Notes under the pieces: generated by a model
Seen by the model: the letters and a program-made list of their open reading frames with translations, nothing else
Told to the model about the DNA's origin: nothing
The model's database searches: none
Program-made: the position numbers and the translations under genes
Shown here: positions 4,839-41,022 of the stretch, in pieces
Layout: each line of letters begins with the position of its first letter
How positions within the stretch are numbered: position 1 is the stretch's first letter
IMG/VR virus record: IMGVR_UViG_3300011013_000023
Span: 1-48,206 of that record
Reading direction: 5' to 3' (one strand)
Source: a virus
DNA length: 48,206 nt

Positions 4839-4854
4839 TCTCTGTTACCTCCCC

Positions 4855-6114
4855 TTAGAACCTAGTTAGGTTGATACGTACTACAGTGTCTGCAGCGCCA
4901 GCATAGTGGACATTACCACGTGCTCCACCAGTAGCTGTACCAGGCATCTCGTCAAGTTGACCAAGATAAGCAGGTTTACCACCAGTAGCATCAGTGCTAA
5001 TTGCAGGATTGTACGCAGTACGTACTCTTTCAAGTAAGTCTTTAGGACCGACATCGCGATCTAAGACCTGTCCAACGATAAGACCCATAGCACGAGCGAC
5101 ATTAGCGGATTCGTCTCCACCAGAAGTGTCGCCTATGTATAGGTTAGCGGCGGATGCCAAGCGGAGGTTAGAGTCTGCATCAAAAGTGAGCAAGTCTCCG
5201 CACTTGAGGTCGCCAACAGCACTTGCAAATGTCGAAACAGTTGAAGGCGCAGCAGCGTAATGGCTATAAGTTAGTGTGATACCAGTTGGTTGAGAGGTTG
5301 CATATACAGTAATGTCACCATTAACAGTATCTACATGCCAATCACCACTAGCTACAACTTCTGCTTCAGTGGCTTTCTGATTAACAAACAATGTAGCCGA
5401 AGCTCCACCTGCAAATGCCATTGCAGTACGTTTGGTACTAGTAGCTAATGGAATATTAGCAACTGGATCAGATTTAGAAACATTAGCAACTGGAACACCA
5501 AATGAAAGTGCTTCAGCCGTAGTCGTAGCAGGAACAAGTGGTAGTTCTAATACGTAGTCACACAGGATGGCTACCTGATGCTGCATATTATAGTTGTGAT
5601 TTTTGTATAGAGCTGGGTTAGAACCATCTCCACCTGCCCATTGAAGATACGCATAAGGAGCGACTCCAACTGGCTGAGAGATGCTGATTGCAACACCGGA
5701 AACACCAAGGAACCCAGCAGCGTCAATTTCTGCTGCAGTATATCCACGAGTAGATCCAGCGTCAGTAAGTTCTGCTGTAGTAACAGCAGCACCTGTTGCA
5801 ACGTTGATCGTTCCAGCGGTTACGTCCCGAGTGGTATAGGTAACAACGTCACCCGATCCAGCTAGTTCAGCTGGAATTTTTAAACCCGCAGGAACAAGAT
5901 CACCGTTAGGGTCACAAGCTACAACTTTACCTGGCATAATCACGAAATAATTTTCATAATGCTTATCAGCGAACTGGACAGGCAGCCATTCAGCTGGTCT
6001 GTATTCAATCGCTGGGCGAACACCTTCAGAGTGTTCAACATTAGGAAGAATATTCCCTACGTGATCCCAAGTCTTGTGATTAGCCTCATATTGGCCAAAA
6101 GCGTTAAAAGACAT
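4855..6114 (-). CDS. head-associated structural protein (decoration candidate)
   Basis: A 419-residue protein, alanine-, threonine- and glycine-rich, with repeated short beta segments such as GDVVTYTTRDVTAGTINVAT and ASATLFVNQKATEAEVVASG. Residues about 40-75 contain FVIMPGKVVACDPNGDLVPA, an arrangement seen in phage head proteins of the decoration or fibre class. It lies between the protease/scaffold and the major capsid gene and has a strong RBS (GAGGAGGAAG). Abundance and location are inferred; a capsid decoration or head-fibre role is the best guess. Confidence 0.65.
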   Translation of the reverse strand: MSFNAFGQYEANHKTWDHVGNILPNVEHSEGVRPAIEYRPAEWLPVQFADKHYENYFVIMPGKVVACDPNGDLVPAGLKIPAELAGSGDVVTYTTRDVTAGTINVATGAAVTTAELTDAGSTRGYTAAEIDAAGFLGVSGVAISISQPVGVAPYAYLQWAGGDGSNPALYKNHNYNMQHQVAILCDYVLELPLVPATTTAEALSFGVPVANVSKSDPVANIPLATSTKRTAMAFAGGASATLFVNQKATEAEVVASGDWHVDTVNGDITVYATSQPTGITLTYSHYAAAPSTVSTFASAVGDLKCGDLLTFDADSNLRLASAANLYIGDTSGGDESANVARAMGLIVGQVLDRDVGPKDLLERVRTAYNPAISTDATGGKPAYLGQLDEMPGTATGGARGNVHYAGAADTVVRINLTRF

Positions 6115-6131
6115 ATTCTTTCTTCCTCCTC

Positions 6132-8444
6132 TTAGTTATCAAGATCTGGCTTTGGTTGAGCGAAACCCCTTGCAACTGCATCTTTATAAAAAGATTTAGC
6201 TTTTATTGGGTTCTGCTCCTGAACTAGAATACGGCGATATTCATTGTCTGCCCAGTCTTGCGATCGGAAAGTAGGCTTTGTGTCTACCTGATCTTTAGTT
6301 TCCTCAGTAACGGAAGGCGTTGTTACCTCAGTTGGATTGTCTACGGTTTCTTTAGGTGTTCTAGAGAGTCCGTCATTGACTTTATCAGCAATGCGAACCA
6401 TGTCAACCTTCCCTGAAATTGTTTCTAGTGAATTGTCAAGTACCTCATCGCTGATTTTTGAAAAATTATCCTTAAGATCGTCGGTAAGCGTACCTTCTAA
6501 TGTGTGTAAGTTCTCAAGTCTTGCAATCTTCTGACTACGTAAGCTGTGATTAGCATTTACGAGTTGGTCAGTTAAGACTTCAATGTCTGAGTATGTTGCA
6601 CGCAACTCTTGGCGAAGAGCAGTTAATTGGTCATTCTTGTTTCCAAGCTTGTCTTCAAGCCTAGTTGACTCTGCAACTTGAGCATCGAATTCATCCTGAA
6701 CAACAACTAATCCAGTAAGAGCTAAGGCCTTGCGTAGACCATCTTCACCAATGCGTTCTGCAAGTGAGATAATCATCTGCTTTAACTGGTTAATCTCTTT
6801 ATCCTTAAGAGCGGGTGCTTCGTCCATGGACTCTTCATCCCAGGGGTTTCCATACAGTCCAAGATCAAGAGTATTAAGAACTGAGCGTACAAGGTCTGCT
6901 GTCAGGCGAGAATCCTCTACTTCTTCAGGTGTTTCCTTGGCAGAGTCTTCAACTTTCGAGTCGGACTCTACACAATCACACCCCATTGCTTTCGCTTTTC
7001 TGGAGACAGAAGTATACACACTGCTTTTCTTAGCCGATTCAACTGTTGAGCTGTCCATTAGTTTCAAAACTGCATTAACATGAGCACAGTCTACAACAGG
7101 CAGGGACATGTCTGGTCCGCAGAACGAACTCTTTGGCAACTTCTCACGGTCCTCAACCGAGAGCTTGTCTTCAAGCAACTCATTAAAAGCATCGTTAAGC
7201 AAGAGGCTTTCTTCGTCTGTTAAGTTAAAGTCATAGGATTGACCGTCTTGAACGCTAAAGATCTTATCCAGAATAGGGAGGACATCACCTTTAGATTCAT
7301 TGTCATCCTGAATGACTTCTTTGTTTGTTTCTGAGCTATCTTCGGAGTCTGCAACTGTTTCAGCTGTGTCTTTAACCTCAGCTTCTACCTTAGCGTTTTC
7401 CTCTGCTTTTACAGTGGGCTCATCTCCACTCTCTTCAGAAGTTTTAACTTCATCTTTGACTTTGTCATCATCGGCCTTGGTATCAATATCCATTGCAGAA
7501 TCCTCCTTGTGAAAGTAATCAGCGACAGGATACAAGAACATGCTTGCTTTTTTATCCTTTACGCTATCCAAAATACCATTTGATTCGATAGATAGAACAC
7601 CTGAATGTCGATCAGCTGGAGTATTAACAAATGAATATTCGTCATAATCCAAGCTACCGGCAATAACAAAACACTTCTTGTCTTCATATACCTTTCCAGG
7701 TCTATGACCACAGTGTTCCTCATCTAACCAATTAGTACTACAAATGGAACATACGGCTTTGTCAGATATAGCTCCAACAGAACCGGTTAAGAATCTACCA
7801 TCTAAAACTTTTTGGATGGCATCTGGGTCAGTAATATCGGCTGTTAGTTCAATGAAACCAACGCCACGATAATGCTTATCACCTAAGACACTATCTATTA
7901 GCTTAACCATTTGTAATTTTTCAATAAAAGATTTATCACTACCGCAGAAGTCTTTCCAAAAGTCAGAGTCAGCACGGCCAATATCCTTCTTTCTGGAATC
8001 TCGCAGTACGTGATTTTTGAACCTATCCACTACTTGACCAACAGTCTCTACATATCTTGATTGGACTACGCGACCAACTGGATCTTTATGATCTTCGTGG
8101 TGTACCTGGATTGGTTTTGGATATAGTTCAGTAAATGTTTTTGCGCCATCTCGCATCTTATCTGGTAAGTAGAATCCGTTATTTCTAGTTACGAGACCTG
8201 CATGAGTGGCAGCTAGTCTAATAACTAGGCCATTACCATTTACTTGAGTAGGTTGAACAGTCTCTGTTCCTGGCTGGGTACCTAATCCAGAAGGATGGGG
8301 TTCGCCAGTTTGGGGCTTAAAGGCGCCCATATAATCATCTTGTACTTTTTCAAAAGACTGCTGGTTGTAATCTAGAACTTTAAAATCTACTTGATCGCTA
8401 AATTCCCAACCTCTATCAGTTTTTCGTCCATTATCAATGCTCAT
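6132..8444 (-). CDS. prohead protease fused to scaffold
   Basis: A 770-residue protein in the normal position for the prohead protease, between portal and capsid. The N-terminal part (about residues 70-300) resembles capsid maturation proteases: ATHAGLVTRNNGFYLPDKM, HHEDHKDPVGRV with candidate catalytic His, and FLTGSVGAIS with a candidate nucleophilic Ser, closing with YSFVNTPADRHSG. Between the last two is a Cys/His cluster (CSIC...HCGH) that could bind zinc. Residues about 320-420 are very acidic, and residues about 560-690 are predicted long helix/coiled coil, as expected for an internal scaffold. The catalytic assignment is by pattern only. Confidence 0.75.
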   Translation of the reverse strand: MSIDNGRKTDRGWEFSDQVDFKVLDYNQQSFEKVQDDYMGAFKPQTGEPHPSGLGTQPGTETVQPTQVNGNGLVIRLAATHAGLVTRNNGFYLPDKMRDGAKTFTELYPKPIQVHHEDHKDPVGRVVQSRYVETVGQVVDRFKNHVLRDSRKKDIGRADSDFWKDFCGSDKSFIEKLQMVKLIDSVLGDKHYRGVGFIELTADITDPDAIQKVLDGRFLTGSVGAISDKAVCSICSTNWLDEEHCGHRPGKVYEDKKCFVIAGSLDYDEYSFVNTPADRHSGVLSIESNGILDSVKDKKASMFLYPVADYFHKEDSAMDIDTKADDDKVKDEVKTSEESGDEPTVKAEENAKVEAEVKDTAETVADSEDSSETNKEVIQDDNESKGDVLPILDKIFSVQDGQSYDFNLTDEESLLLNDAFNELLEDKLSVEDREKLPKSSFCGPDMSLPVVDCAHVNAVLKLMDSSTVESAKKSSVYTSVSRKAKAMGCDCVESDSKVEDSAKETPEEVEDSRLTADLVRSVLNTLDLGLYGNPWDEESMDEAPALKDKEINQLKQMIISLAERIGEDGLRKALALTGLVVVQDEFDAQVAESTRLEDKLGNKNDQLTALRQELRATYSDIEVLTDQLVNANHSLRSQKIARLENLHTLEGTLTDDLKDNFSKISDEVLDNSLETISGKVDMVRIADKVNDGLSRTPKETVDNPTEVTTPSVTEETKDQVDTKPTFRSQDWADNEYRRILVQEQNPIKAKSFYKDAVARGFAQPKPDLDN

Positions 8445-8452
8445 ATATAAGT

Positions 8453-11400
8453 CTACTCCTTATTAAAAACTTCGATCTCTGCTCTTGCACTTGCATGTAG
8501 CGGAGGGATTTCCTCTAGGTCGAAGCTAGATTGAATGGAGTGAGAATCTGCAGAGGCATTTTTACACTTATCACAAGAGTCCTCTGGGGCAGCAATTCTC
8601 CATTCACTAAACTTCAAGTCTCTAGCTGCTTCAAGAAAACCAAGGTTATGTGCTTTCCTAATCTCTACATCTTCCATGAATTTGTTTCTAAACCTAAATG
8701 AATCAAAGACAGCTTTAACTCTGTGGATTCTATCACCCTTTGACAGATCCGCAATACTCTGCCTATCTACAGCATTGATTGTATCTCTGATCAGTCGTTC
8801 TATGTAGAAATCTATACGTTGTTGGATCTTGGAACGAGAGCGAATAGACGCATCAATTTGTTGATTACTATCACTATTCAGTTCTTTATAACCCCTCATG
8901 AAAGCTGCACTTGCTCGGCTATTGAGATCCTTAGACATAGAATCTTGAGTTGAAATAGCAAGCTGTCTAAACAGGAAGAAGTCAAAACCATTCTTATTAA
9001 CCATCTCTACAAGGTCACTCTCTAAGTCATTATACTTTGGGGTTAAGAAGTCTGTTGTCTTTGCCTGTGGCTTATTAGCAGCTGCAGTTTTTGCTCTTCT
9101 TTCTTCTGCTTGTAACTGCTCCTCTCCAGCTTCAACTCTTTGAGTTTCTGTTACAGAGGTAGACCTTGAAGCAGCAGCAGCCTTCGCAGCTGGAGTGAAG
9201 GGTTCATCAACAGCCTGGATTAAAGCTTTGGGCTCATCTATTAGCTTCCAGAATGTAGAATGCCACTCTGGGAACTGTTCTGCTAGATCCTCTATCTCTT
9301 GGGCCTCTAGAGAAGTTGGGATATCAAATGGCTGTCTTCCCATTCCAATTCTTGCTTCATGAATGGTAATAGCATTTTTTGCAAATAGATCTGCATGGTG
9401 ATTTTCTTTTTTAATCTGATGATCTAAATCGATCTCTTTAAACTTAAGGAACACTTTGTGTTCTTGGTTTAGTACATCAGAACCGAAGTTAGATTCTAGT
9501 AAAAGCTCACTAACTAGAAAATCATTAACCTGACACTCTAGAGTTCTTTGAATGTCTTTTACAGAGTCAACAAGATTCTGTGACATATTATCAGAAGTAG
9601 CACGGTTTGCAGTATTACCCTGGATAGTAATAAGTTTATTACGTCTAGTTACGAAAAGGTGATTGGGAACATTATAGCAATAAATAATCCCACTATAATC
9701 AACCTCACTAACATCTCTCTTGATGTTCAAAAATCTGTTTCGAGCTTTTCGTTCCCTCAGGTTAGCTCTTAGGTAAAAGAAGTGACCGATTTCAGGACTA
9801 TGTTTTTCAGAAATATTACAGTTATATCCAGCAGATATTAGAAGTCTCTGGATCAAGTCAACAACAAGCGGCTCGGTTACTCTCATATAGTATTCAAGTC
9901 CGCCACTTCTACTGTCTCTTTTTCTGAAGGCTACCTTCGTGAAGTTACAAGCGAACACCTTCCTAGCTGCTAGAGTAAAGTTCTCTGCCCAGCTAAAAGC
10001 CTCTACCGTGGTAAATTTCTTGAAGAATCCACCCAGAGTATTAGCATCAATTCTTATGCAGTTCTTATTTCCTACCTTCTGGGCTGTCCAAGGAATTTCC
10101 AAGTCAGATAAGACTTTGATTATATCCTCTTCCTGACCAGTACCCCTTCTTCCTTTTAAGAACAAGAAGTCACCTGGCTCGTTCCACATAGGTTCATTGC
10201 CAGCTATATAGCCAGCAACAGCAGCAAGACTTATTTCGTCCTTGTGAGGTAATTTAACATTTGCCTTGTCTGCAAAAGAGGTTGTACTAAGTAGGTGACA
10301 CTTGTACCCAGCTTTGCCAGCTAAGATATCCTTTGCAGACATCTTGGTCCACATACATTCATCGTTTGTACAAACCCACATGTCATGATTTGGAGTGACA
10401 AGAATGTCTACTCTTGAGTTTTTAAACTTGATCATCTTACCAACATAAGGATTTTCATACTTATAATTAGCAATGTGAAATTCAATCCTTTTACTTTCTG
10501 GATTATAAGTGGCAATCTTTTCTTTTGTATGATCGATAGCCCAGTGGAATTTCCACCCAGATTCAGTTAGTGTTTGAGTACTAGAATCGTAACATTCACC
10601 TTCACCCATATCTACAGCTGAAATACCAAGACCAGAGAAGACTCTCTTCTTGAAATGTTCAAGATAACTCTCTGCACGTAGGGCTCTATTCTCTGTACCA
10701 ATAAGTTCGATATTGTGTCTATGAGAAGTAACGATACCGCCTTCTGAAGGCATGTATTGAATTTCACGTCTGGCGATTTCAATTTCTGTCTCACCCTGTT
10801 CTGTAATAGTTGCAGGTTGAGCATCGCTACCTATTTGGTAATGGAATAGTGGAAATAAGTGTTGATATATAAGAAGTTCTATATTCTCTTCAATCTTTCT
10901 AAGAGCACGAATATCATCTATGACTGGAACTAGAGTGGGCGTCCCAAACATGAGACCTTCTTTCTTGTTGAAGTAGAAATGTACAACATCTTCTGCTGCA
11001 AAGATCTTGAAGCTACCATCATGCATACGTTGTTTCCAACGGCGGACCTTACCAAACTTGTCAGCATCAACCAGCATTGTTTCTGGTGGAGCAATAAAGT
11101 ATCCAGCGATTGGCTGTAATAGCTTCTCTTTTCCGGGAACCTGTCTAGGTTGTCCACCTGATGCAGACTCTTTCCTTACTTTTACAAGAAAAGCATTGGA
11201 TTTTTTAATCAATCCAGAACCGATGGCTTTGACAAGTTCATCTGTGGGGATACTTGTAGCACGTGCTATTTGGTCAAGTCGTGATTTTATATATTGTATA
11301 GTACGAGGATTTGGGCCAACGAATTCATAACCTTCTTTAAATAGTAGGCCAATCTTCTTTAGGTAAGCCTGATGAACATAGGAGTCGGTATCCTCTACGC

Positions 11401-11647
11401 GGCCAACCTGGGAAAGATCATATTCAGACTGTATAAAGTCACCACGTCTACCCCTGTCTGTATTATAGCTAAGAACATTTGGCTTAACAGGTAAAATATT
11501 AGCTGGCTGCTTGTGTTCAGGAATAGAAAAGCCCTTAAGCTCAGGGCGAATAACTGGACCACGATCTTTGATTCCTACATTAATATTACTATCTGAAATA
11601 ATAGGAAAATTTACCTTATCTCCAAGTTGAAAACCAAAAATATTCAT
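8453..11647 (-). CDS. portal protein with intein and C-terminal MuF-like domain
   Basis: The start is set at the ATG at 11647 (MNIFGFQLG), 7 nt after the upstream stop; a TTG nine codons earlier is possible. The 1064-residue product has portal features: RRWKQRMHDGSFKIFAAEDV, HFYFNKKEGLMFGTPTLVPV, and SGLGISAVDMGEGE followed, after an intein, by TANRATSDNM, the conserved portal core. The C-terminal region is helical and ends PEDSCDKCKNAS...IPPLHASAR, the Cys-pair/PPLH signature of Mu gpF/SPP1 gp7-like minor head proteins. Portal and head-morphogenesis functions are therefore in one chain. The portal ring is the packaging vertex to which TerL docks. Confidence 0.88.
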   Translation of the reverse strand: MNIFGFQLGDKVNFPIISDSNINVGIKDRGPVIRPELKGFSIPEHKQPANILPVKPNVLSYNTDRGRRGDFIQSEYDLSQVGRVEDTDSYVHQAYLKKIGLLFKEGYEFVGPNPRTIQYIKSRLDQIARATSIPTDELVKAIGSGLIKKSNAFLVKVRKESASGGQPRQVPGKEKLLQPIAGYFIAPPETMLVDADKFGKVRRWKQRMHDGSFKIFAAEDVVHFYFNKKEGLMFGTPTLVPVIDDIRALRKIEENIELLIYQHLFPLFHYQIGSDAQPATITEQGETEIEIARREIQYMPSEGGIVTSHRHNIELIGTENRALRAESYLEHFKKRVFSGLGISAVDMGEGECYDSSTQTLTESGWKFHWAIDHTKEKIATYNPESKRIEFHIANYKYENPYVGKMIKFKNSRVDILVTPNHDMWVCTNDECMWTKMSAKDILAGKAGYKCHLLSTTSFADKANVKLPHKDEISLAAVAGYIAGNEPMWNEPGDFLFLKGRRGTGQEEDIIKVLSDLEIPWTAQKVGNKNCIRIDANTLGGFFKKFTTVEAFSWAENFTLAARKVFACNFTKVAFRKRDSRSGGLEYYMRVTEPLVVDLIQRLLISAGYNCNISEKHSPEIGHFFYLRANLRERKARNRFLNIKRDVSEVDYSGIIYCYNVPNHLFVTRRNKLITIQGNTANRATSDNMSQNLVDSVKDIQRTLECQVNDFLVSELLLESNFGSDVLNQEHKVFLKFKEIDLDHQIKKENHHADLFAKNAITIHEARIGMGRQPFDIPTSLEAQEIEDLAEQFPEWHSTFWKLIDEPKALIQAVDEPFTPAAKAAAASRSTSVTETQRVEAGEEQLQAEERRAKTAAANKPQAKTTDFLTPKYNDLESDLVEMVNKNGFDFFLFRQLAISTQDSMSKDLNSRASAAFMRGYKELNSDSNQQIDASIRSRSKIQQRIDFYIERLIRDTINAVDRQSIADLSKGDRIHRVKAVFDSFRFRNKFMEDVEIRKAHNLGFLEAARDLKFSEWRIAAPEDSCDKCKNASADSHSIQSSFDLEEIPPLHASARAEIEVFNKE
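9614..10594 (-). other. intein in the portal protein (327 aa)
   Basis: Residues 352-678 of the portal (counting from 11647) interrupt the conserved core between DMGEGE and TANRATS. Block A is CYDSSTQTLTESGWKF with the catalytic first Cys. Block B contains VTPNHDMW (TxxH). Block F is YSGIIYCYNVPNHLFVTRRN, and block G ends KLITIQGN with terminal Asn. The +1 extein residue is Thr, and the penultimate residue is Gly rather than His. A LAGLIDADG-like piece (AVAGYIAGNEP) is present only once and looks degenerate, so homing activity is doubtful while splicing residues are intact. Confidence 0.88.
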
Positions 11648-11654
11648 TCCCTTT

Positions 11655-13130
11655 TTAAACCTCTGTATTATCAAGTTCAGCCAAGAAGGCTGCTAGCTTA
11701 TTGTCATCTGGGGTCTGTGCCTCAAAGAAACACTGTGGTATTACCCTTACTGGCGTATTAGCTTGAGTTATTATAGCATCAACTGCCTGATCTACCTCAT
11801 TATTTCCAGTTGGATCAATTGTTATATTAGATTCTCCCAAAATATCGTTAACATTAGTATCAAGAACAAGCATGATATTATTTGTTGTCGTATCTACAGA
11901 TATTAACACATTACTTTCTGGACCTAAGAATTCTTCAAAGAATTGGGTAAGAACAGAGTTTGCAGCCTCTGCATCTGGTATTTCACAATTCAACCCACCA
12001 GAAAGAGCCCGAACTGTAGCAATTAAAAATTGTATCATCCTAACAATCAACAGCTTATCATATTGTTTTGTTAAGAATTCCAGTGTTTCCTGTTGACCCC
12101 CACCGACAAACTTATCCAGTTCAGATAGTAACTCAGCAAGAACACTTTCTACCTCCACTACACCACTTGTAACGATTCTTTTCAGATGAAAAACAGAAGA
12201 GCCTAGACTGTTCTGCATATTACTTATGTAGTCATCATAGCTTAAACCTGCAGATCTAGCGCTTCGAAGTGCACCACTAACAGCTGGACTATTAAAATCT
12301 ACACCTGTTAACTGCTCAGTGCCTGTTATGCCAGTGATCTGTTCTAGTTCATTAGTTCTGCTTTCAATTGCTGAAATGTTCTGATTCTCTAAGAACCCAC
12401 CGGTTTTTATTTTTTCTAGTGATGCGCTTAGTTGTCCTATTACACACTGTAGGGGGTCCGTAACAAGAACCTTGTATTGACCAAAAAGCTGTGTGATGTT
12501 TGTGAATATAGGTTCAAATATAGGCTGAATTAACAGCTTCATTATGTCAGTGCTCTCCAGTATCTCCTTGGATGTCTGCCTATATAACATTGCAGACATG
12601 AGGGATATCATTCTTTGTATATCAGGAATGCAAACATCATTAAGAGCTTTTAGTAATAAACATGCATCTTGATATACGTCAGAGGCATTTAGCATATTCA
12701 TAATAAAAGCTAACTGTTTTAGATAGTTCCCTAGTAGATCTTCAAGTGTATTAAGAAGGGTATCGTTTAAGCTAAGCGCCAAGTCTGCCCTAAATTTTAA
12801 TCGTAGAGAGCAAGGGACACATTTCTCTAGCCACTCTAATCCCAAGCCAGACATTTGATTTCCAGCTGCAAGAATTCCAGAAGCGTCGATGGGAAGTTCC
12901 ACGCTAATACTGGATTCTGAAGCTGCATTTAACAACTGTTGTATTATATCAGGGATTGGTGGTGATATAGCATTGGTAAGGTTTGAGCTGGCACTATCGG
13001 CACCCACCTGCATCATTACAGTGCAGGACATTAGACCCCCAATAACATTATCCTCCGCAGGCGCAGAGAGCATCTTCTTCTGGAAAAGTTTAGCGACCTG
13101 CGAACAGTCTTGTAGTTTCGTAGCTTCCAT
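11655..13130 (-). CDS. hypothetical structural protein upstream of portal
   Basis: A 491-residue mainly helical, Leu/Ile/Asn-rich protein without signal peptide or obvious catalytic motif. Cysteines are scattered (CSLRLKF, CLLLKALNDVCIP). It lies immediately upstream of the portal gene with a 7-nt gap to the portal ATG, and downstream of two other unknown genes of the packaging block. Position suggests an internal or vertex protein of the head. I do not recognise the family. Confidence 0.6.
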   Translation of the reverse strand: MEATKLQDCSQVAKLFQKKMLSAPAEDNVIGGLMSCTVMMQVGADSASSNLTNAISPPIPDIIQQLLNAASESSISVELPIDASGILAAGNQMSGLGLEWLEKCVPCSLRLKFRADLALSLNDTLLNTLEDLLGNYLKQLAFIMNMLNASDVYQDACLLLKALNDVCIPDIQRMISLMSAMLYRQTSKEILESTDIMKLLIQPIFEPIFTNITQLFGQYKVLVTDPLQCVIGQLSASLEKIKTGGFLENQNISAIESRTNELEQITGITGTEQLTGVDFNSPAVSGALRSARSAGLSYDDYISNMQNSLGSSVFHLKRIVTSGVVEVESVLAELLSELDKFVGGGQQETLEFLTKQYDKLLIVRMIQFLIATVRALSGGLNCEIPDAEAANSVLTQFFEEFLGPESNVLISVDTTTNNIMLVLDTNVNDILGESNITIDPTGNNEVDQAVDAIITQANTPVRVIPQCFFEAQTPDDNKLAAFLAELDNTEV

Positions 13131-14264: not shown

Positions 14265-17200
14265 TTAAATATTCTTGCGCTTGGGTGGACCACCACGTGC
14301 GCCTTTTCTAAAGTCGGAACCTCTCCCAGGGGAAACATTTGACCTACCTGGAATATAAGACTCTTTCCGTTGTTTTTCAACTGGTTCTGTCCAAAGCGGT
14401 AAAGATTCTCTTGCTCTATATCCAAACTGAGTCTTATTTGGATTTTCAAAGGCAGATCTGTCATTGTCTGGCTTAGCAGCCTGTGCCTGCTGTAGCTGAG
14501 TAGGTGCGCCGCTTCCCATGTTTGGATCAAAATTATTGTGTCTTATTGGAGAAAACAATATGCGATGATCTGATCCAGGCTTGCCAAACGAGGTTTTTTC
14601 AAGAGTGAAGGCAACAAGAGCTAGCATTAAGGCATCAAGATTGTGATCTCCCAAGCCCTCACTGTTTGTAGCATACACAAACTGTCCAGTTGGAGATACG
14701 TTCTTGACTATGTAACCCATCAACTCTGCTGCCATCTGAATGTCACTTTCGGGGAATAGAATATCTCCAGCTTCAAACCTTCTAACTGAATTTTCAACTA
14801 AGAAGCCCTTTGCTGGTTTATTAACCTTTTCTTTAGTAAAGGGATCGTGGGTCTCTACCTTGCTTCCGAAGTCATAAGCTTTAACAATAAAAGGAAGTCT
14901 TGAGTCAATATGCTTAGGTCCCTTCTCTGGATTAGACATTGAGTCATAACCAAACTTATGCAGTACTTCTACTTGCATTGCTCCATAGCCACGATCTACA
15001 TAAATAGCGAATGGTCTCCACTTTCTATTAAACTCTGCGATACGATCGCATGCTGCAAGTTGTGTCCAGCCTGCTCTTTGAACAATGTCCTGATCTACAA
15101 TGTAGAACTTACTAGTTGCTGGATTAAAACCAATCACTCTGATGGTTGTACCAATAGCTGGAGAGTTCCAGTCTACACCTATACTATATAGCCAGCTTGG
15201 CTGTGGAGACATGTCTTCATATTCATAATCAACCTGTGCAGCCTCAACGTATTGAACCTGGAAGACACCCTCTTCTTGTTCACCAAAGTCAGCCAAGACT
15301 TCATGCTTATAGCCGATATCCGTATACTCATCTCTAAAGTATTGTTCCATCTCTGGATCCCAGTTAGGATTAACTGCTGATGAGTAATGAAACTCTCGCC
15401 ACTTATCAGAACGACAGTTGTCATAGAACTTCTCACGTTTACCAGATGGAGTGGAACTCATCCAAACAAGAGCGTCTGGATGGTCAATGGTGATAGCCAT
15501 AGCAGCTTCGACATCAGCTTTACTTAGATAATCTGCTTCATCAAACACAAGCATGTTAGCATCTTGACCACGAGCACTAGCTGCACCACTTCCTGACTTA
15601 GTTCCTGCAGTGAAACCCTTTATATAGGAACCATTGTGAAGCTCCATCGAATATTGAGGAGCTTTAACGTTTCGTCTAATAGAGTTAGAAAGTGCAGGTT
15701 TACTTTGTAGTAGTTCTTGTAAACGAGCAAAGATTAGATCAATTTGTGATTGAAAAGGAGTGATGAGAACAACTTTAAAATTGTTATTAGTGAACATGTG
15801 AAACAGAATAGATATAACAAGACTCTCTGTCTTGCCTGCTCGACGCCCAATACGAAAGATTTTTCTTTCTGCTGTACAATTATGAACTATGACCCCATCA
15901 CTAACAAAGTTGTGACGTGTATCTACCTCTATATCGTAGACAGGTTCTTGGCCAATCAACTCTATGCTTTTAATTTTAGTTCTAGTAGTAGTCTTTAGTT
16001 TTCCACGCTTTTTATTATGATTCCTTTTTTTAGTTTCTGACAAAGCTAATAAAGACTTCTGTTCCTTTCCATAGATAGGACCAGAAAAATTCAGAAAGGT
16101 TTCTATATCACTAATTCTATTAATAACTAGAGACCTAGATACGTCTCCATTCTTTTTCATATCGACATAGACCTTACTCGTTGCAATGCCAATCTTTTTT
16201 AACAACAGTCTATATAATCTCAAGAAGTCATCACTACCGCTAGATAGTGACAATACTACCCTTAGGTGGCTTAGGTGGTTTTCTTTTTTAAGATAAACAC
16301 AACCATCACCAGACCACGACCTGTTAATAAAATAAGACAATGCTTCTTTTGAAAACTTAAATGCAAAATTAGTAATAGATAACTCTCTCGTATATTTATC
16401 CCTACAGCCGATATCTCTTAAAAACACCAGTAGCGGATGTGATTTGCCAGATATGCTAATTGTCCAAAATTCTTTATGAGAAACCCCATCCTTGCTAATT
16501 TGAGCAGGCCTGTAGGATACTAGTGGACGATTTGTTTTAAAATGTTTTTGAACTAAATCAGCGAACTCTTCAACATATTCTCTTCTTGTATTTGAAAACT
16601 GAACAACATGCTTTTGACCAACAACGCTAGTATTAGATACGTAACCATCTGTCACAATATAACCTAATAGCTTTGCAAGATTGATTGAATTTTCGTTTCC
16701 AAATATTCCAAAGCTATTTAATGTATATACACGATCACCCACAGAGAGCCCCTTTTCTATAGAGGAGTAGACTCTTTTAAAGGACTTGTGACCAAATAAT
16801 TGATTAGTTGCCCCAGCTTTAACCCATGAAAGAATAGGGTGATTGTCAGTTACTTTTAATATATCACCATTAGTGAGTTCTATTTTATAGATATTTTTGA
16901 GACCATTATCCCAGGTGTTTAATACTTTATAAGAGTTTTGAGTCTGTTTTCTATTTTCATTATAGGTAACAACCTTGTCTCCAACTTTTACATCCTTGAT
17001 GTTTCTAACAGTTCCATCAGCTAGAAATATTTTAGAATCCCCTTGTAAACAACGGAGCATTTCTGCCTGATAAGGACGATGGTAGTTAGAGGCTCTTCCT
17101 GGAAACCTCTCTACCAACCTGTCACGTTCTTCTGCATTTTTTCTTATCCAGACACTGTGATCTGGATCAAGACAATGCCAATCTAAAACTTCTGCTGCCC

Positions 17201-17396
17201 AAGTTACAGGATCCAGAAGCAGGGCAATGTTGTCATGTGCTGGAATGAGTGATGCTGTTTCATCACCTACATAAGATTCAGGGATGCCTCCACATTGAAT
17301 CTGGAAGGTTGAGCCCTTTTTTAGCTTATGCTTGCAGGTGTAATTCTTAACGCAACTACGACAAGTTTCACTTGTATTTAATAGATTGAGTGCCAA
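14265..17396 (-). CDS. terL: terminase large subunit (ATPase/nuclease) with intein
   Basis: A 1043-residue precursor with a TTG start (no ATG nearby; 3 nt after the upstream stop codon). Residues 507-1043 plus 1-115 form TerL. The N-terminus has a Cys cluster (CRSC...C...C). Walker A is GRRAGKTE at about 517-524, Walker B/catalytic Glu is MLVFDEAD at 615-622, and the coupling motif is SSTPSG at 647-652. The nuclease domain has GVDWNS (D742), YVDRGYG (D801) and GDHNLDALMLAL (D917/D921). The tail is Arg/Gly-rich. It translocates DNA into the prohead through the portal and cuts concatemers. A 391-residue intein (116-506) must be removed for the ATPase domain to be continuous. Confidence 0.93.
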   Translation of the reverse strand: MALNLLNTSETCRSCVKNYTCKHKLKKGSTFQIQCGGIPESYVGDETASLIPAHDNIALLLDPVTWAAEVLDWHCLDPDHSVWIRKNAEERDRLVERFPGRASNYHRPYQAEMLRCLQGDSKIFLADGTVRNIKDVKVGDKVVTYNENRKQTQNSYKVLNTWDNGLKNIYKIELTNGDILKVTDNHPILSWVKAGATNQLFGHKSFKRVYSSIEKGLSVGDRVYTLNSFGIFGNENSINLAKLLGYIVTDGYVSNTSVVGQKHVVQFSNTRREYVEEFADLVQKHFKTNRPLVSYRPAQISKDGVSHKEFWTISISGKSHPLLVFLRDIGCRDKYTRELSITNFAFKFSKEALSYFINRSWSGDGCVYLKKENHLSHLRVVLSLSSGSDDFLRLYRLLLKKIGIATSKVYVDMKKNGDVSRSLVINRISDIETFLNFSGPIYGKEQKSLLALSETKKRNHNKKRGKLKTTTRTKIKSIELIGQEPVYDIEVDTRHNFVSDGVIVHNCTAERKIFRIGRRAGKTESLVISILFHMFTNNNFKVVLITPFQSQIDLIFARLQELLQSKPALSNSIRRNVKAPQYSMELHNGSYIKGFTAGTKSGSGAASARGQDANMLVFDEADYLSKADVEAAMAITIDHPDALVWMSSTPSGKREKFYDNCRSDKWREFHYSSAVNPNWDPEMEQYFRDEYTDIGYKHEVLADFGEQEEGVFQVQYVEAAQVDYEYEDMSPQPSWLYSIGVDWNSPAIGTTIRVIGFNPATSKFYIVDQDIVQRAGWTQLAACDRIAEFNRKWRPFAIYVDRGYGAMQVEVLHKFGYDSMSNPEKGPKHIDSRLPFIVKAYDFGSKVETHDPFTKEKVNKPAKGFLVENSVRRFEAGDILFPESDIQMAAELMGYIVKNVSPTGQFVYATNSEGLGDHNLDALMLALVAFTLEKTSFGKPGSDHRILFSPIRHNNFDPNMGSGAPTQLQQAQAAKPDNDRSAFENPNKTQFGYRARESLPLWTEPVEKQRKESYIPGRSNVSPGRGSDFRKGARGGPPKRKNI
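15879..17051 (-). other. intein with LAGLIDADG homing endonuclease in TerL (391 aa)
   Basis: Residues 116-506 of TerL. Block A is CLQGDSKIFLADGTV starting with Cys. Block B is KVTDNHPILSW (TxxH). Two dodecapeptides, LAKLLGYIVTDGYV and LSYFINRSWSGDGCV, carry the acidic residues of an active LAGLIDADG endonuclease. Block F is VYDIEVDTRHNFVSDGVIVHN, written here as VYDIEVDTRH then NFVSDGVIVHN, ending in the canonical His-Asn; the +1 extein residue is Cys. It sits 11 residues before the Walker A motif, in a highly conserved part of the host gene. All splicing and nuclease residues that can be checked by eye are present, so the element looks active. Confidence 0.92.
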
Positions 17397-17399: not shown

Positions 17400-17879
17400 T
17401 TAGATACCGCCGCCGAAGCTGCCAACTCCAAGGTTCCCTCTAAGGCTAGCGCCTAAGTTACCATATGATCTACGTGCTAAGCTCGCCATGTAATTGAAGT
17501 CTCTGCGGCCCTGAGCCCCCATGTTTCCCATACCACGCATTGCGCTAATCCCCAATCGTTGACCACCTGAGATATCCCCTGTTATCCCTTTCATACCACG
17601 TAGGTGTCCTGATCTATATCCACGTCTAGCACCGCGCATGCCAGCTCTACCATAGCGACCCATAGCAGCGCCACCCATGGCTCCAGTAAGGGCTCCGCCC
17701 AAACGACTTTGTCCACGGTCACGACCTATAGTTCCACCATAGATGCCGCCACCAGCTGCTCCAGCTAGAGTTGCCATATTAGCAGCACCGATTGCTTGAG
17801 ACCCCCGACTAAAAGCACCTTTGGCAAAATATGCGCCATCGCCAACCACACTACCTAAGAAAAAACCTGCCCCTGGCAT
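17400..17879 (-). CDS. glycine/arginine-rich protein with glycine-zipper repeats
   Basis: A 159-residue protein with an AGGAGTTG ribosome site. Residues about 38-75 are a glycine zipper (AGAAGGGIYGG, GGALTGAMGGAAMG), a pattern linked to membrane insertion, and the rest is unusually rich in Gly, Arg and Met (GRYGRAGMRGARRGYRSGH). It is the last of three similar small proteins coded just before TerL. Such proteins may be virion-internal, DNA-binding and membrane-active at entry; this is inferred from composition only. Confidence 0.6.
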   Translation of the reverse strand: MPGAGFFLGSVVGDGAYFAKGAFSRGSQAIGAANMATLAGAAGGGIYGGTIGRDRGQSRLGGALTGAMGGAAMGRYGRAGMRGARRGYRSGHLRGMKGITGDISGGQRLGISAMRGMGNMGAQGRRDFNYMASLARRSYGNLGASLRGNLGVGSFGGGI

Positions 17880-17892
17880 ATTAAAACAACTC

Positions 17893-18348
17893 CTATCTGT
17901 GAAGAATTCTAGCTTCGTTGCCTAGAGTTCTAGACATTGCAGACCTATCTCTAGAAAGAGATCTTGCTGACTGCATCTTCATTTGATTTAGTGTACCATA
18001 ACTATCCATAAATGGTCTATACATGTTAACTTGCCGATTAGAAGTGTAAATCTCCTTACCCTTTTGGTATGCAAAATATCCACCAACGGCTGCAGCTCCA
18101 ACAGCCCATCCATGAGGACCAGCGCTTATTGCCATATCAAACAGTGCTGCTTCACCCAGACCCATTAACACACCAGCACCAGCACCGTAGTCTTGTCCAT
18201 AGGAGTAATATCCCGTTCCAGCGCTAATACCATAACCTGCAACTGTTGCAGTTCCAATAGCTCCTGCTTTAGCAAAACCTGCTGCACTACGAACTTTTTG
18301 AGATCTACCGACAGCAGAAAGACCAGTTGATATAAATCTACTTATCAT
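17893..18348 (-). CDS. alanine/glycine-rich hydrophobic protein
   Basis: A 151-residue protein starting at an ATG that overlaps the previous stop by 4 nt (ATGA). The N-terminal two thirds is a Gly/Ala-rich hydrophobic region (AGAIGTATVAGYGISAGTG; GWAVGAAAVGGYFAYQKG), followed by a basic, Ser/Arg/Met-rich tail. The layout resembles its two neighbours, suggesting a related set of virion or membrane-interacting proteins. No family recognised. Confidence 0.6.
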   Translation of the reverse strand: MISRFISTGLSAVGRSQKVRSAAGFAKAGAIGTATVAGYGISAGTGYYSYGQDYGAGAGVLMGLGEAALFDMAISAGPHGWAVGAAAVGGYFAYQKGKEIYTSNRQVNMYRPFMDSYGTLNQMKMQSARSLSRDRSAMSRTLGNEARILHR

Positions 18349-18956
18349 CTTGTTCTACTCCCGTGAAGTCCAAAGACAAGACCCTGAGTGGACTGTTGAA
18401 ACTCTGTAGACCGATAACTTGATCTTTTAAATTGTTGAGTATAGGATTTCATTTCACTTCGCATTGCACTTGCTCCCTGAGCTGCAGCCTGTAGCCCCCC
18501 AACTGGATCATCAGATAACATTCCATAGGCAAGGAGTCCCGCACCTGCGACTGCCCCTATCTGAGGAATAGATGCACCAAATGCTAATTTAGAAAATGCA
18601 TTTGCAGCTTTATAAGACTTATTAGCAGCTGGACTTGTTGCAGCACGATATAAACCACTTACACCACTACCTGCTAAGCTTGCTGTCTTTAAGGCTGCCC
18701 CGCCAATCATCTTTCCCCTTCCAGCCCACACCTTTCTACTTCTACTTCTCATTTTCTTCTCTAGAAAAGAATCGTGTGCGCCTACATCTGGGGTAAAGCT
18801 CATAGCTCTGGAGGTTGCACCTGTTAGGTTCTTTCCTGAACTCATATTTATATTACGATAGGGTTGAGGACTACCATAATATCCCTGTGCAAAGTCTTTT
18901 GATGAGTTTGGCAGGCCAATTGGAATATTATGATATGCATCTTGTAAAAAGCTCAT
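18345..18956 (-). CDS. hypothetical internal virion protein-like
   Basis: A 203-residue protein. A polar N-terminus is followed by a basic segment (KKMRSRSRKVWAGRGKM), a hydrophobic Gly/Ala region (IPQIGAVAGAGLLAYGML) and a tail ending QSTQGLVFGLHGSRTR. It overlaps the next gene by 4 nt and sits between the exonuclease-kinase fusion and TerL. The hydrophobic centre and basic flanks are shared with the two following proteins. I infer a packaged, membrane-active protein, without proof. Confidence 0.6.
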   Translation of the reverse strand: MSFLQDAYHNIPIGLPNSSKDFAQGYYGSPQPYRNINMSSGKNLTGATSRAMSFTPDVGAHDSFLEKKMRSRSRKVWAGRGKMIGGAALKTASLAGSGVSGLYRAATSPAANKSYKAANAFSKLAFGASIPQIGAVAGAGLLAYGMLSDDPVGGLQAAAQGASAMRSEMKSYTQQFKRSSYRSTEFQQSTQGLVFGLHGSRTR

Positions 18957-18965: not shown

Positions 18966-21437
18966 CTATCCTGATCTTGATCTTTTACCACCAGAAGAAC
19001 CAGATCTTGATAACTCTTCAGATGCAGCTGCTTGTGCTTTTGCCCTACGAAGCTTACGTGCTGCAATTCTCGCTTGACGTGCAGGGTTTACTTTACCAGA
19101 AATAACACTTTTCTCAGCCAGTGCTCCTCGGTTAAGATCTAGCGGCATATCTAGCTTGGCTGCGTGTCTTTGAAGCTCAGAGATGTCCATAGCTGTTTCT
19201 CTTACGTTGTATCCATGGGCGGCTACGGTCGACATAACCTCTTCTTTAACAGAACTGCCTGGTACATGCTCAAAGCTTTTTATATTAAATTCAGTATTTA
19301 CTTTACCAGCAAAGCCAAAGTCGATAACACCAACCTGGCCTTGTTTTGTTAACATGACGTTTTTAAAGTGGAGATCACCATGGACGTACCCTTTCTTGTG
19401 CATGTGTTCAACGTTCTGTTGTAATTTACTCATATGGGATGCCTTAAATAGACCCTGATCAAGAGCATCAGCAGCTGAATGCCCTTCAAAAAGCTCCATG
19501 TCTATAAAATGCTGCTTATCCTTACTGCCTGATGCATAAACAGTGGGACCGAAGCTGTCTTCAAACTTTTGCATAGTTGAAACTTCTTCTGTTCCCATCT
19601 CTCCTCTTTTTCTAACGAAGGAAAATTCTTTACCTCTAAATTGACCTTTCATTAAATAGGCTTCACCAAAAGCACTTTCGTCACCAAGACGGGCTCCCTG
19701 CTTAGCTGTACTTAGTGCCTCCTGGAATCCCTTACTCTGTGTCATCTGTTTAAAGGTTTCCTTACCTTTAGTTAGAGCACGTAGAGCATCCCAACCAGAA
19801 CCAAACCCTGTCATCTTCTTGCGAATATTTTGGGCTATCCCCTTGTGGCCCATACCTTCAATAACATTAAAAGCATCATCAAATCCTTGTCGAGATTCAG
19901 CAACTCCAATAGCTGCTTGTCTTCCAAGCTTTCCGCCACCTAGGCTAATAAAGGCACCTAGCTCATTTTGTTCTCCTGTTTTAATAAAATCGACAAGCTG
20001 TTTACGAAAATTAGATGATCCCGTTTTGACAAGCTTTTTTGTTAACTGTGGCTGCTGCGCAGCTGCTACAGCTACTTCTTTAATAGCACGTCTATTTTTT
20101 AGTCCTGCATAGATATACTTAGTGGCCGCAAAAGTACCTGCAGCACCAGCTATAGCACCACCTGTCAAACCTCCGCTTGCTGCAGTCATTCCCAAGTGAA
20201 TCATTTCTGCACTTGCTGCTGTTGTGGCACCTATAGCCAGTGGGGCACCTTTCATTGTATCTGCAGCAACTTGAGCTGTTAGATTATAAGTTTCATGAAC
20301 ACCACCCTTGATAGCAACTTTACCAGCTTGTAACATACGGGCTGCAATTCTTATATAGCCACTACCAAACTCTGTCATCTGTTTACGAAGAACTTCAGCA
20401 AAACCACCATGTCTTAAACCTTCTACTGTATTGTATTCATCATCACTAGCAGAGAAGGCACTGGATAGACCATTTGCTGTAATTAAACCAGCTGCAAGGA
20501 TGCCAGCACCAGCACCAAACCTTCTTAGAAGTTTAGGTATGTTCTGCCAGGCAACCCTAGCTCTTTCAGACTTACTGGGATAAAAGAACTCTCCTGCAGC
20601 TTTTTCTGCTTTAGAAGGTGCACTTTTATATCCTGCTACTGTAGAGGCTAACCAGCCACGAGCAAACTCGGGAGTTTCAGCTACCCTCCTCATCTCTCCT
20701 GTACCAATGGCATCGTAGAGGCGTCGAGTCATTTTGACATCAGCACTACTTTGGTGGGCTTGTGAGGTTAGCTTCGAGTCGGGCTCAAGTAGGGGAAATA
20801 TCTGCTCCAGTCTCCAACCACGAGCTAGGTAGTCCTTCACAGCAGATGGACCTCTTCGCTCTACTTGATTACCGAAGGCCTCCATCTGACGAAGCATGTT
20901 GTATTCAACTGGTCTACTGGAGTGGGGCAGCTTCTCCCAGGCCGTCTGGGCCTGGCTCCAAGTTTTGCCACCCAGCTGCTCCCTGAACGTCCCCTGTTGA
21001 AGGTGAGCACCTATGGTCTCTCCCAGTATCTTCTTTGTTCTAAGACCAACGTCTATTTGTCTGTGACCCCTCAGGGCTGATGATAGTTCACCCTCAAGTC
21101 CATGCATTCTAGCTCTTTGTTGCATGAAAGGTATATCGAAGTTGGAACTATTAAATCCAACGACAGGGCTACCTGCTGGTGCTCCCTGTAGTCCTGTTAT
21201 GAACTGTTTGATTACATCTCTTTCTGGAAAGGTTCTAGATGCTTGTGATACCTGAGGTATAATATTTTCTTGAGAAAACTTGCTTAACCAGCTTCCTGAC
21301 TGGGGATGGGCAAATGCTTCCTGGACCAGGCTCCTGTTGGACGAATAGGACGCAGAGAGGATGGAAGAACCCCTCTTTCCAGAAGAATCTAGTCCACCAG
21401 TCTCTATGTCGAATATGAAGGGCTCAGGGAGCTTCAA
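18966..21437 (-). CDS. DEDDh 3'-5' exonuclease fused to a protein-kinase-like domain
   Basis: An 823-residue protein with a TTG start. Residues 1-245 form a DnaQ/RNase T-type exonuclease: FDIETGGL (D10, E12), NSSNFDIPF (D101) and HQSSADVKMT (H228, D233), so all DEDDh residues are present. Residues 300-450 are hydrophobic and glycine-rich, with one likely membrane segment (303-328). A motif is repeated at 332-362 and 519-549 (NTVEGLRHGGFAEVLRKQMT / NVIEGMGHKGIAQNIRKKMT, then FGSG). Residues about 590-730 look like a kinase: FVRKRG (candidate Lys), a Glu at 617-618, HGDLHFKNV (D688, N693) and IDFG (D706). The tail is very basic. It is coded in the packaging/virion block, so it may be injected with the DNA. 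Confidence 0.85.
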   Translation of the reverse strand: MKLPEPFIFDIETGGLDSSGKRGSSILSASYSSNRSLVQEAFAHPQSGSWLSKFSQENIIPQVSQASRTFPERDVIKQFITGLQGAPAGSPVVGFNSSNFDIPFMQQRARMHGLEGELSSALRGHRQIDVGLRTKKILGETIGAHLQQGTFREQLGGKTWSQAQTAWEKLPHSSRPVEYNMLRQMEAFGNQVERRGPSAVKDYLARGWRLEQIFPLLEPDSKLTSQAHQSSADVKMTRRLYDAIGTGEMRRVAETPEFARGWLASTVAGYKSAPSKAEKAAGEFFYPSKSERARVAWQNIPKLLRRFGAGAGILAAGLITANGLSSAFSASDDEYNTVEGLRHGGFAEVLRKQMTEFGSGYIRIAARMLQAGKVAIKGGVHETYNLTAQVAADTMKGAPLAIGATTAASAEMIHLGMTAASGGLTGGAIAGAAGTFAATKYIYAGLKNRRAIKEVAVAAAQQPQLTKKLVKTGSSNFRKQLVDFIKTGEQNELGAFISLGGGKLGRQAAIGVAESRQGFDDAFNVIEGMGHKGIAQNIRKKMTGFGSGWDALRALTKGKETFKQMTQSKGFQEALSTAKQGARLGDESAFGEAYLMKGQFRGKEFSFVRKRGEMGTEEVSTMQKFEDSFGPTVYASGSKDKQHFIDMELFEGHSAADALDQGLFKASHMSKLQQNVEHMHKKGYVHGDLHFKNVMLTKQGQVGVIDFGFAGKVNTEFNIKSFEHVPGSSVKEEVMSTVAAHGYNVRETAMDISELQRHAAKLDMPLDLNRGALAEKSVISGKVNPARQARIAARKLRRAKAQAAASEELSRSGSSGGKRSRSG

Positions 21438-21439: not shown

Positions 21440-22273
21440 CTAATCACCAGACTTATTGTTACCTTCATCTATCGTCTGGTCAATAAGAGATTCTGGAGTT
21501 ACGATCTCTGCATCTATTATTTGGGAATCTGCCTTTTTAACTTGAGATTGTAGATCTTTAAGTTGTTGTTTTACATTGGCCATGCTGGAACTGGCATCTT
21601 CATCTGTTTTCTGTTTTAGAGCGGCTTCTCTTCTGTATTTCTCCTGTCTGTCTCCAACCATCAATTTAACTAGTTTACTTTTTCTGTTGGCTAGTTTTTG
21701 TTTTTGTTCAAAGATTGGTGAGACTTGGAGGTTTGTTATTACATTGCCGTCTCTGTCTATGCCTACGGATTGATCTGTTACTAGAGTTGCATTCTCTGGT
21801 CTACGTAGGGTCATTGTTAGTCTCCACTGTAGAACTTCTATTTCTGCTAGTTCAGTACATATTCCTATTTCTGTGAAGGAGTTGGGATCTACGTCATACT
21901 CTACTACGTAGTTCATTACTGACTCTTTTAGCATAGTTGTTTCTAGGAGGCAGTCTTTGTCTAGAGGTGCTTTGTTCATTTGTTGTAGGGCACACTCTCT
22001 AGCAAAGGGGCATTGGCTGGCTGCACATCTCATGGGGGCAAAGGTTGCTGCTCCTGTTGCCATCTTCTTTAGGGTTTTTAGTAGGACCTTTTCTTGTTCT
22101 TTGTTTAGTTCTATGTCTGAATAGTCTTCTGCTCCAGCTTCTAGTGTTTGTTGGAGTGTTTTATGTGTTTTGTTTTCTATGTCTGTCCAAGCTGATTGGG
22201 TAACTATAGATAGACTTCTAGGTGGGGGTAGAAGTTCTTCTAGTCTTAAGCTGTCATCTTTTTCGTCTGTCAT
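21440..22273 (-). CDS. cysteine-cluster protein, small-terminase position
   Basis: A 277-residue protein with a central cluster CAASQCPFARECALQQMN...DKDC (about residues 83-108), spaced like a metal or iron-sulfur site, then a helical region and a charged coiled-coil C-terminus. This Cys pattern with a following Glu recurs in phage proteins coded close to terminases, so a small-terminase or regulatory role is possible. There is no visible DNA-binding motif. It starts in a 4-nt overlap with the upstream gene. Confidence 0.6.
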   Translation of the reverse strand: MTDEKDDSLRLEELLPPPRSLSIVTQSAWTDIENKTHKTLQQTLEAGAEDYSDIELNKEQEKVLLKTLKKMATGAATFAPMRCAASQCPFARECALQQMNKAPLDKDCLLETTMLKESVMNYVVEYDVDPNSFTEIGICTELAEIEVLQWRLTMTLRRPENATLVTDQSVGIDRDGNVITNLQVSPIFEQKQKLANRKSKLVKLMVGDRQEKYRREAALKQKTDEDASSSMANVKQQLKDLQSQVKKADSQIIDAEIVTPESLIDQTIDEGNNKSGD

Positions 22274-39970: not shown

Positions 39971-40046
39971 GGGTTACTAGCTTGCATGGTGTAAGCGCTC
40001 GCCTGAAGAGCGAGAGATCTTGGATCGTTACCAGGGTAACCCACCA
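39971..40046 (+). tRNA. tRNA-Phe (GAA)
   Basis: Acceptor GGGTTAC pairs with GTAACCC, discriminator A, encoded CCA. Anticodon arm CTCGC-CTGAAGA-GCGAG gives GAA. T arm is CTTGG-ATCGTTA-CCAGG, so the T loop (ATCGTTA) departs from the usual TTCGANN. Confidence 0.9.
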
Positions 40047-40062
40047 AAGGATTAATGAGAAA

Positions 40063-40327
40063 ATGACCTATGTACAAAATAACATCCAGTTCGATATTCA
40101 GCATGCAGCGCATGCCAATATTGACGTACAGGTCTTTAAAAAAGCTAAACTTTCCTAACCAGCTCGATCCAACTTATCTCATTAATCTACATCCAACACA
40201 TAGGTCCCTAGCAGCAATAGAGTTTCTTGATTATGTAGACTGTTGTCACATAAATAAACTAATTGATGATCAATTGTATGAATCTATACGTAGTGTAGTT
40301 AAACAAATATGTGAGATTAGAAATTGA
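40063..40327 (+). CDS. small gene split by a +1 frame difference at an A6 run
   Basis: Frame 1 starts at ATG 40063 (TYVQNNIQFDIQHAAHANID...VFKKAKLS, 31 residues). Frame 2, open from 40070, carries a protein-like continuation, LNFPNQLDPTYLINLHPTHR, to 40327. The two join smoothly if one A is removed from the A6 run at 40138-40143, giving one protein of about 87 residues. AAAGGATTAATGAG lies upstream of 40063. The alternatives are an independent 85-residue gene from 40070, programmed frameshifting, or a sequencing indel. Confidence 0.5.
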
Positions 40328-40344
40328 TTAGTGAATATCTACTT

Positions 40345-40419: not shown

Positions 40420-40449
40420 ATGATTAACCATATAACAATAGAGCTTTAA

Positions 40450-40797: not shown

Positions 40798-40839
40798 AAC
40801 TTAAAGAATGTAGAGTGGAGGAGAGTGGTAATTCAGTAT

Positions 40840-41019: not shown

Positions 41020-41022
41020 AAT

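Follow-up and report, generated by a model that had tools for sequence, protein, structure and literature searches.

A 36-residue linker marks a family of modular proteins encoded near the TerL gene of uncultivated phages

Introduction

In polymorphic toxin systems, cassettes are apparently exchanged on a shared scaffold, and the family of phage proteins described here is alike in this respect. Those systems are also treated in passages of the paper on polyvalent proteins (Iyer et al., 2017; PMC5512222); as presented there, polyvalent proteins combine disparate enzymes in one chain encoded by a late gene and are predicted to be injected, and their domains include kinases, GNATs, ARTs and zincin metallopeptidases. 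Multi-enzyme phage proteins are already known; what appears to be new here is a recurring 36-residue joint.

The DNA that we analyzed (the window) is the whole stretch of 48,206 nt; its modular ORF (the window ORF, P0001) lies at 18966–21437 on the minus strand. Like the polyvalent proteins of PMC5512222, as characterized in the passages cited, the members of the P0001 family carry unrelated enzyme domains in each chain and are encoded beside late phage genes; unlike them, they have one recurring 36-residue linker and a fixed place before the TerL gene. In the main text of PMC5512222, searches for DEDD, staphylococcal nuclease, Cas4, linker and spacer came up empty, and ‘exonuclease’ turned up once.

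Results

Layout of the modular ORF

P0001 encodes 823 residues from a TTG start located 2 bases past the stop codon of the upstream gene, with zero internal stops; the open frame and the shuffle test of its motif copies (vide infra) rule out a chance or frameshift artifact. From the N-terminus, the order is exonuclease, hydrophobic stretch, linker 1, Gly/Ala-rich middle, linker 2, kinase and basic tail:

18966..21437 (−), modular ORF P0001, 823 aa (coordinates with the stop codon)
20673..21437 (−), predicted DEDDh 3′-5′ exonuclease domain, aa 1–255 (D10, E12, D101, H228, D233), by profile and fold
20451..20531 (−), Gly-rich, moderately hydrophobic stretch ahead of linker 1, aa 303–329
20349..20456 (−), linker copy 1, aa 328–363
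19887..20348 (−), Gly/Ala-rich middle, aa 364–517, no family match, model mostly of low confidence
19779..19886 (−), linker copy 2, aa 518–553
19098..19742 (−), predicted protein-kinase-like domain, aa 566–780, confident to ~712 (K610, HGDLHFKN 686–693, DFG 706–708)
18969..19097 (−), basic C-terminal tail with a GG[KR] stretch, aa 781–823

Basic tails like that of P0001 are seen by eye in several relatives. A protein identical to P0001 is encoded by L001 (65,976 bases), the sole result of the first locus search. As to annotated relatives, the phages collection gave only short matches to the kinase region (E 2e-4, two faecal phage records), and among plasmids the matches were confined to the same region.

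The exonuclease and kinase modules

Profiles and a structure model identify residues 1–255 as a DEDDh exonuclease with predicted 3′-5′ activity. The PADLOC DEDDh model matches P0001 with E 9.8e-5 and its relative L007 with E 5.7e-9; phrog_192, ‘DNA polymerase exonuclease subunit’, matches P0001 with E 1.7e-7, and Pfam PF10108 with E 1.1e-4 (below gathering). The best PDB match of the exonuclease profile is 9mrd (E 6.4e-8), and 9mrd, that is, the TREX1 homologue Plex9.1, is also the top match in a fold search (E 2.2e-6) with the AlphaFold model of the domain (mean pLDDT 80). P0001 shares with the TREX1-like DEDDh exonucleases (Plex9.1, PDB 9mrd/9mrc) the fold and the five catalytic residues, that is, the D-E-D-H-D set in an RNase H-like fold; it differs from Plex9.1 in that it is followed by other modules in a long chain, of which it forms the N-terminus, and in having a low-confidence helical insertion (~145–205). 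In an alignment of nine rows (A4), D10, E12, D101, H228 and D233 are found in every one, with the relatives 23–38% identical to the window exonuclease; of the 12 ORFs labeled as having an exonuclease, A4 leaves out L024 as well as L030 and L074, which are degenerate or partial. The complete DEDDh exonuclease that a sequence-only reading of this DNA had claimed is thus borne out by the invariant residues and by the fold match. Another alignment (A3) was set aside because its exonuclease rows were misplaced. Four of 14 N-terminal modules that cluster together (L030, L034, L067 and L074) have no exonuclease motifs.

Residues 566–780 are predicted, from sequence profiles and a model, to have a kinase fold. 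Pfam Pkinase matches 616–722 (E 1.3e-10) above gathering, as do APH, PK_Tyr_Ser-Thr and ABC1; with both Pkinase and APH matching, the substrate may be a protein or a small molecule. The features of the protein-kinase-like superfamily are present, that is, an N-lobe Lys (K610), an HxD loop (HGDLHFKN, 686–693, in which D688 is the catalytic Asp) and a DFG motif (706–708, with D706). The model aligns with PKR over 186 residues (Z 14.6, rmsd 3.6), with many other kinases tied; part of the C-lobe is either absent or modeled without confidence (pLDDT <50 at 715–743). The kinase-like domain that had been read from HGDLHFKN and DFG, with D688 as its catalytic residue, therefore held up in both the profile search and the structure prediction, with the caveat on the C-lobe, and the Pfam match above gathering together with the structural match rules out an over-call. 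The best PADLOC match of the kinase is PD-T4-6, a defense model (E 6.5e-15), which covers the kinase region only; a defense-like role is possible on this ground, and a kinase fold in common is no evidence of a common function. As described in section 10 of PMC5512222, the kinases of polyvalent proteins resemble that of P0001 in a reduced C-terminal lobe and in belonging to multi-domain phage proteins; in them, the catalytic His and Asp are separated by an insert, which the HGD of P0001 lacks.

The linker and its family

The duplicated motif noticed in the sequence-only reading is present as two copies of a linker of 36 residues (consensus xFSGxDDxYNTIEGLxHGGxAxxxRKxxTDFGSGW), whose role as the linker of a family that reading missed. 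An HMM constructed without the window's copies (the leave-out HMM) finds both of them, at 328–363 (E 4.3e-18) and 518–553 (E 1.5e-17); the best single stretch in 2000 shuffles of P0001 gave E 0.11. Relatives in IMG/VR were located by DNA patterns made from the linker, with which 7 of 10 and 33 of 33 matching stretches proved to be members (L006, L011 and L012, among the ten, proved non-members). The linker occurs in 36 viral records, including the window and L001, although its presence in all but these two is by construction (they were chosen by the DNA pattern), and its matches are confined to one open frame per record. A profile search added nine contigs, for a total of 45 uncultivated-virus records, several of them near-copies; the nine were mapped apart and enter none of the counts of 28 that follow. 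The 28 mapped ORFs represent 28 of the 36 records, the eight omitted (the window, L013, L015, L026, L029, L037, L039 and L042) being the window itself or near-copies as judged by ORF lengths and linkers.

The mapped ORFs have one to six linkers each, mostly between different modules. Among their 74 copies, G21 and S36 are the same in every one, and F34, G35, R27, G14 and T32 are conserved at 93–98%. In the full-length AlphaFold model of P0001, the linker blocks have mean pLDDT values of 32–54, that is, no confident structure; the alignment that was folded (A2) had no properly aligned rows for linker 1 and 25 for linker 2.

A hydrophobic stretch (best 17-mer mean >1.0) lies ahead of 44% of 68 linkers (E <1e-5, matched from the first three model positions and at least 32 residues into the ORF; three are from L039), as compared with 4.7% of 1740 positions drawn at random from these ORFs. 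Such a stretch suits passage through a membrane and packing in the head alike. For P0001, the central hydrophobic Gly-rich region described in the sequence-only reading exists as a Gly-rich stretch, but its hydrophobicity is moderate only (best 19-mer mean 1.33). The suggestion that the protein acts at the membrane gains a little from the stretches ahead of the 44% and loses from the moderate hydrophobicity of the window's own stretch and from the more than half of linkers that have none.

With one linker copy as the query, tblastn (E up to 10) detected no linker in isolates; its sole match, in Synechococcus phage S-SZBM1 (two records, E 5), is to a protein without the motif. In cellular genomes, the DNA pattern matched 22 loci, of which the best, in a Chlamydiae MAG (L061), gave an HMM E of 7.3e-5 for the whole sequence and 7.6e-4 for the domain (0.003 in another run) and was judged a chance match; the others gave E 0.001 or weaker. 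In the literature, the linker motif strings were unmatched and a description of the family was absent from titles and the starts of abstracts. The linker, which belongs to neither enzyme, is the marker of an apparently undescribed phage protein family, and the design of linkers and modules is seen only in uncultivated relatives.

Module repertoire and turnover

For the module map, the 28 ORFs were cut at their linkers and compared with local profiles grown from hand-chosen seeds. Kinase modules were assigned in 18 ORFs, the exonuclease family in 12 (a count that takes in the degenerate or partial L030 and L074), SNase in 9, PD-(D/E)XK in 5, GNAT-like modules in 4 and metallopeptidase-like modules in 12 (leaving out a 20-residue profile match in L024). 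The most kinds of module in one relative, five, are found in L067; at the other end, L034 has neither nuclease nor kinase by the local profiles. Exonuclease and kinase occur together in 9 of the 28 (L001, which stands for the window, L007, L020, L024, L025, L030, with a degenerate exonuclease, L069, L072 and L076) and, by local profiles, also in L100, where Pfam and PADLOC listed no match; the pairing, for which the sequence-only reading knew of no described counterpart, is therefore a recurring one.

Solid profile support is limited to the kinase, SNase and DEDDh modules. Of the 24 relatives scanned with Pfam, 8 have an SNase match above gathering and 5 have such a match to a kinase family. 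The GNAT-like modules have weak PDB matches (E 0.004); the PD-(D/E)XK assignment is from the motif and from Cas4-model matches in L113 (E 5.8e-6), with a best E of 0.21 in the PDB profile search; and the metallopeptidase-like modules have HExxH-type motifs, some of them broken (e.g., HKDRH in L069), and a best PDB E of 0.16. HExxH- and HGT-type motifs are found in relatives only. We also take motif readings, each made once to a few times in the relatives, to suggest ART-, ATP-grasp-, DnaJ- and CHAT-like modules.

Two further proteins were noted in the relatives. L113 encodes a modular protein of 2411 aa (3685–10917) that by eye seems to contain an intein and to have a long part in common with L116 and L108; L101 encodes one with kinase and SNase (5512–9348) and a stretch that resembles a nucleotidyltransferase.

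The strings of modules differ between related phages. In all of the 28 closest TerL pairs listed (57.8–73.1% identity over 118–440 aa), the two strings are different; for example, the window and L007 (TerL 66% over 439 aa) both have the exonuclease and the kinase, and L007 has additional metallopeptidase-like and GNAT-like modules between linkers. L081 contains a tandem cassette, that is, a direct duplication in which 163 nt across the linker are 92% identical at a spacing of 1266 nt. Near-copy records, which are outside the set of TerL pairs, keep one string unchanged, so turnover is not fast at that scale. The differing strings and the L081 duplication fit an exchange of cassettes at the linkers, as judged from sequence comparison.

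Genome neighborhood

P0001 is encoded on the same strand as its neighbors, with three Gly/Ala-rich proteins and then TerL on its downstream side, as had been read from the sequence when the gene was placed in a packaging block beside Gly-rich proteins and TerL:

21440..22273 (−), P0006, 277 aa, Cys cluster, directly upstream of P0001
18345..18956 (−), P0002 (‘protein A’), Gly/Ala-rich, C-terminus ...STQGLVFGLHGSRTR
17893..18348 (−), P0003 (‘protein B’), Gly/Ala-rich, C-terminus ...LGNEARILHR
17400..17879 (−), P0004 (‘protein C’), Gly-rich, weak glycine-zipper match below gathering
14265..17396 (−), TerL with a Hint/LAGLIDADG intein (Pfam Intein_splicing, aa 123–506)

The position of P0006 suggests that it is a small terminase. 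Its homologue is upstream of the modular gene in 24 of 28 loci (the other four end there), at a gap of no more than 116 nt in 22 of them, 776 nt in L078 and 607 nt in L079. TerL lies downstream in 27 of 28 loci: in 24, it is encoded on the strand of the modular gene at a distance of 1.5–4.3 kb, and in L021, L024 and L032, its downstream place emerged when whole records were searched. A match in the L021 locus itself (gap −5160) was spurious and was excluded, and no TerL was found in the fragment that holds L075.

The proteins encoded in 17400–18956 have C-terminal tails that are conserved across loci (STxGLVQGLHxGRH; TMRQRSLQAIQNS..NGR.ALGNEA); by tail pattern, protein A-type tails are found in 18 and protein B-type tails in 20 of the 28. 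These tails before TerL are perhaps an assembly signal. The protein B profile matches gp009 of KLEB27-3 and an ORF of MTATph1 at the far end of the record, which is next to TerL only if the ends of the record join; gp012 of ME3 was not among the matches listed. With the protein A profile, KLEB27-3 gp008, whose similar tail is seen by eye only, gave no match, and another ME3 ORF gave a weak one (E 7.5e-5).

Among isolates, TerL relatives (E 1e-10) are found in Acinetobacter phage ME3, Bacillus phage KLEB27-3 and Moorella phage MTATph1, to which the window's TerL and portal are distantly related; because all three have tail-sheath genes, a contractile tail is likely. The window's P0008 is related to gp014 of KLEB27-3, whose annotation is prohead protease. 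At the counterpart site, KLEB27-3 encodes a Gly-rich protein with no recognizable enzyme. ME3 encodes gp011 (529 aa) as the second gene before TerL; this protein has a DEDDh match (E 4.2e-7) and, as in the family, a hydrophobic Gly-rich stretch near its C-terminus (by eye), but it lacks linker and kinase and its similarity to the family is weak (E 0.005 to L122).

Elsewhere, the portal (8453–11674) matches intein-bearing ribonucleotide reductases and thymidylate synthase at about aa 304–724, a pattern that suggests a second intein, and TerL is also in two pieces in G004, G006 and G028. Of the 15 tRNA calls in the window, 14 cluster at 39971–46295, and one is tRNA-Asn (anticodon att). The later half of an ORF at 43969–44607, which ends early, resembles the start of an RtcB RNA ligase.

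Discussion

We consider it probable that P0001 is a linker-organized variant of the polyvalent proteins and serves as a payload, which the virion would carry and release along with its DNA; the ‘multi-domain effector packaged in the virion’ of the sequence-only reading is likewise the best reading and fits the polyvalent class. P0001 and its relatives have several disparate activities predicted per polypeptide and are encoded near late virion genes. P0001 is filed as a variant because searches of the main text of PMC5512222 gave neither DEDD nor linker and because its kinase lacks the insert. Among the Pfam matches listed for P0001 and the 28 relatives scanned, there is none to the named polyvalent domains (MPTase, ART, LPD, MuF, ArdC-N, etc.). 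Virion mass-spectrometry evidence sought by way of 0305phi8-36 was not forthcoming from passages of the comparative paper PMC2147016, and passages of PMC4870245, on phage BpSp, held nothing of use here.

As a payload, the chain would be expressed late, alongside the packaging proteins, with its enzyme modules strung between linker copies that have no confident predicted structure; it would enter the head with its Gly/Ala-rich neighbors and be ejected together with the phage DNA. The exonuclease could then degrade DNA, either of the host or of a competitor, and the kinase could, at an early stage of infection, phosphorylate a protein of the host. The linker would keep the modules apart while lineages swap, gain and duplicate them, and the chain could act whole or after cutting at the linkers. 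More tentatively, the payload may be a plug-in one across a large, uncultivated phage lineage: the linker would be both a handling signal (for capsid loading or processing) and a joint for cassette exchange, and each phage would inject through its tail a particular set of enzymes drawn from nucleases, kinases, acetyltransferases, ADP-ribosyltransferases and peptidases.

A gene with a putative TerS on one side and TerL on the other could equally well have a role in packaging. The protein would then be a packaging or head-maturation factor that is not injected; its nuclease would trim or resolve DNA at the motor, and its kinase would regulate assembly. Consistent with such a factor are the position of the gene, which is flanked by putative TerS and TerL genes in almost every locus mapped, the nuclease modules of three unrelated folds at the same spot and the DEDDh match of ME3 gp011 two genes before TerL. 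We regard it as a live but unlikely alternative, given that modules of the acetyltransferase-, ART- and metallopeptidase-like kinds, and strings that differ between related phages, fit poorly with a conserved part of a motor, that KLEB27-3 has no recognizable enzyme at the site, and that L034 has neither nuclease nor kinase by the local profiles. That the exonuclease and kinase act in the producing cell, in superinfection exclusion or in the breakdown of host DNA, and are not delivered seems quite improbable: the PD-T4-6 defense model is the kinase's best PADLOC match, but the nearby genes are head and packaging genes, and the common C-terminal tails of the neighbors suggest joint assembly.

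An explanation that overlaps with the payload, and that we hold to be possible although not the favored one, is a polyprotein in which the linker is cut by the phage head protease or by the chain's own metallopeptidase-like modules, so that single enzymes are packaged. P0001 itself has no metallopeptidase-like module, 36 conserved residues are long for a cutting site, and known cutting sites of the T4 and phiKZ types seem to differ from the linker. Pointing toward cutting are the linkers themselves (highly conserved, without confident structure and mostly between modules), the metallopeptidase-like modules in 12 of 28 members, the relationship of P0008 to the annotated prohead protease gp014 of KLEB27-3 and, as reported in passages of PMC5512222, the processing of DdrB and DarA of P1 before packaging.

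If the payload explanation is correct, a 36-residue motif that can be searched as a pattern marks dozens of phage-borne modules (28 ORFs mapped) that would be the first to reach the host. The polyvalent proteins would gain a recognizable joint, so that loading, cutting and exchange might be approached through one short sequence, and new nucleases, kinases and host targets might be found through the family.
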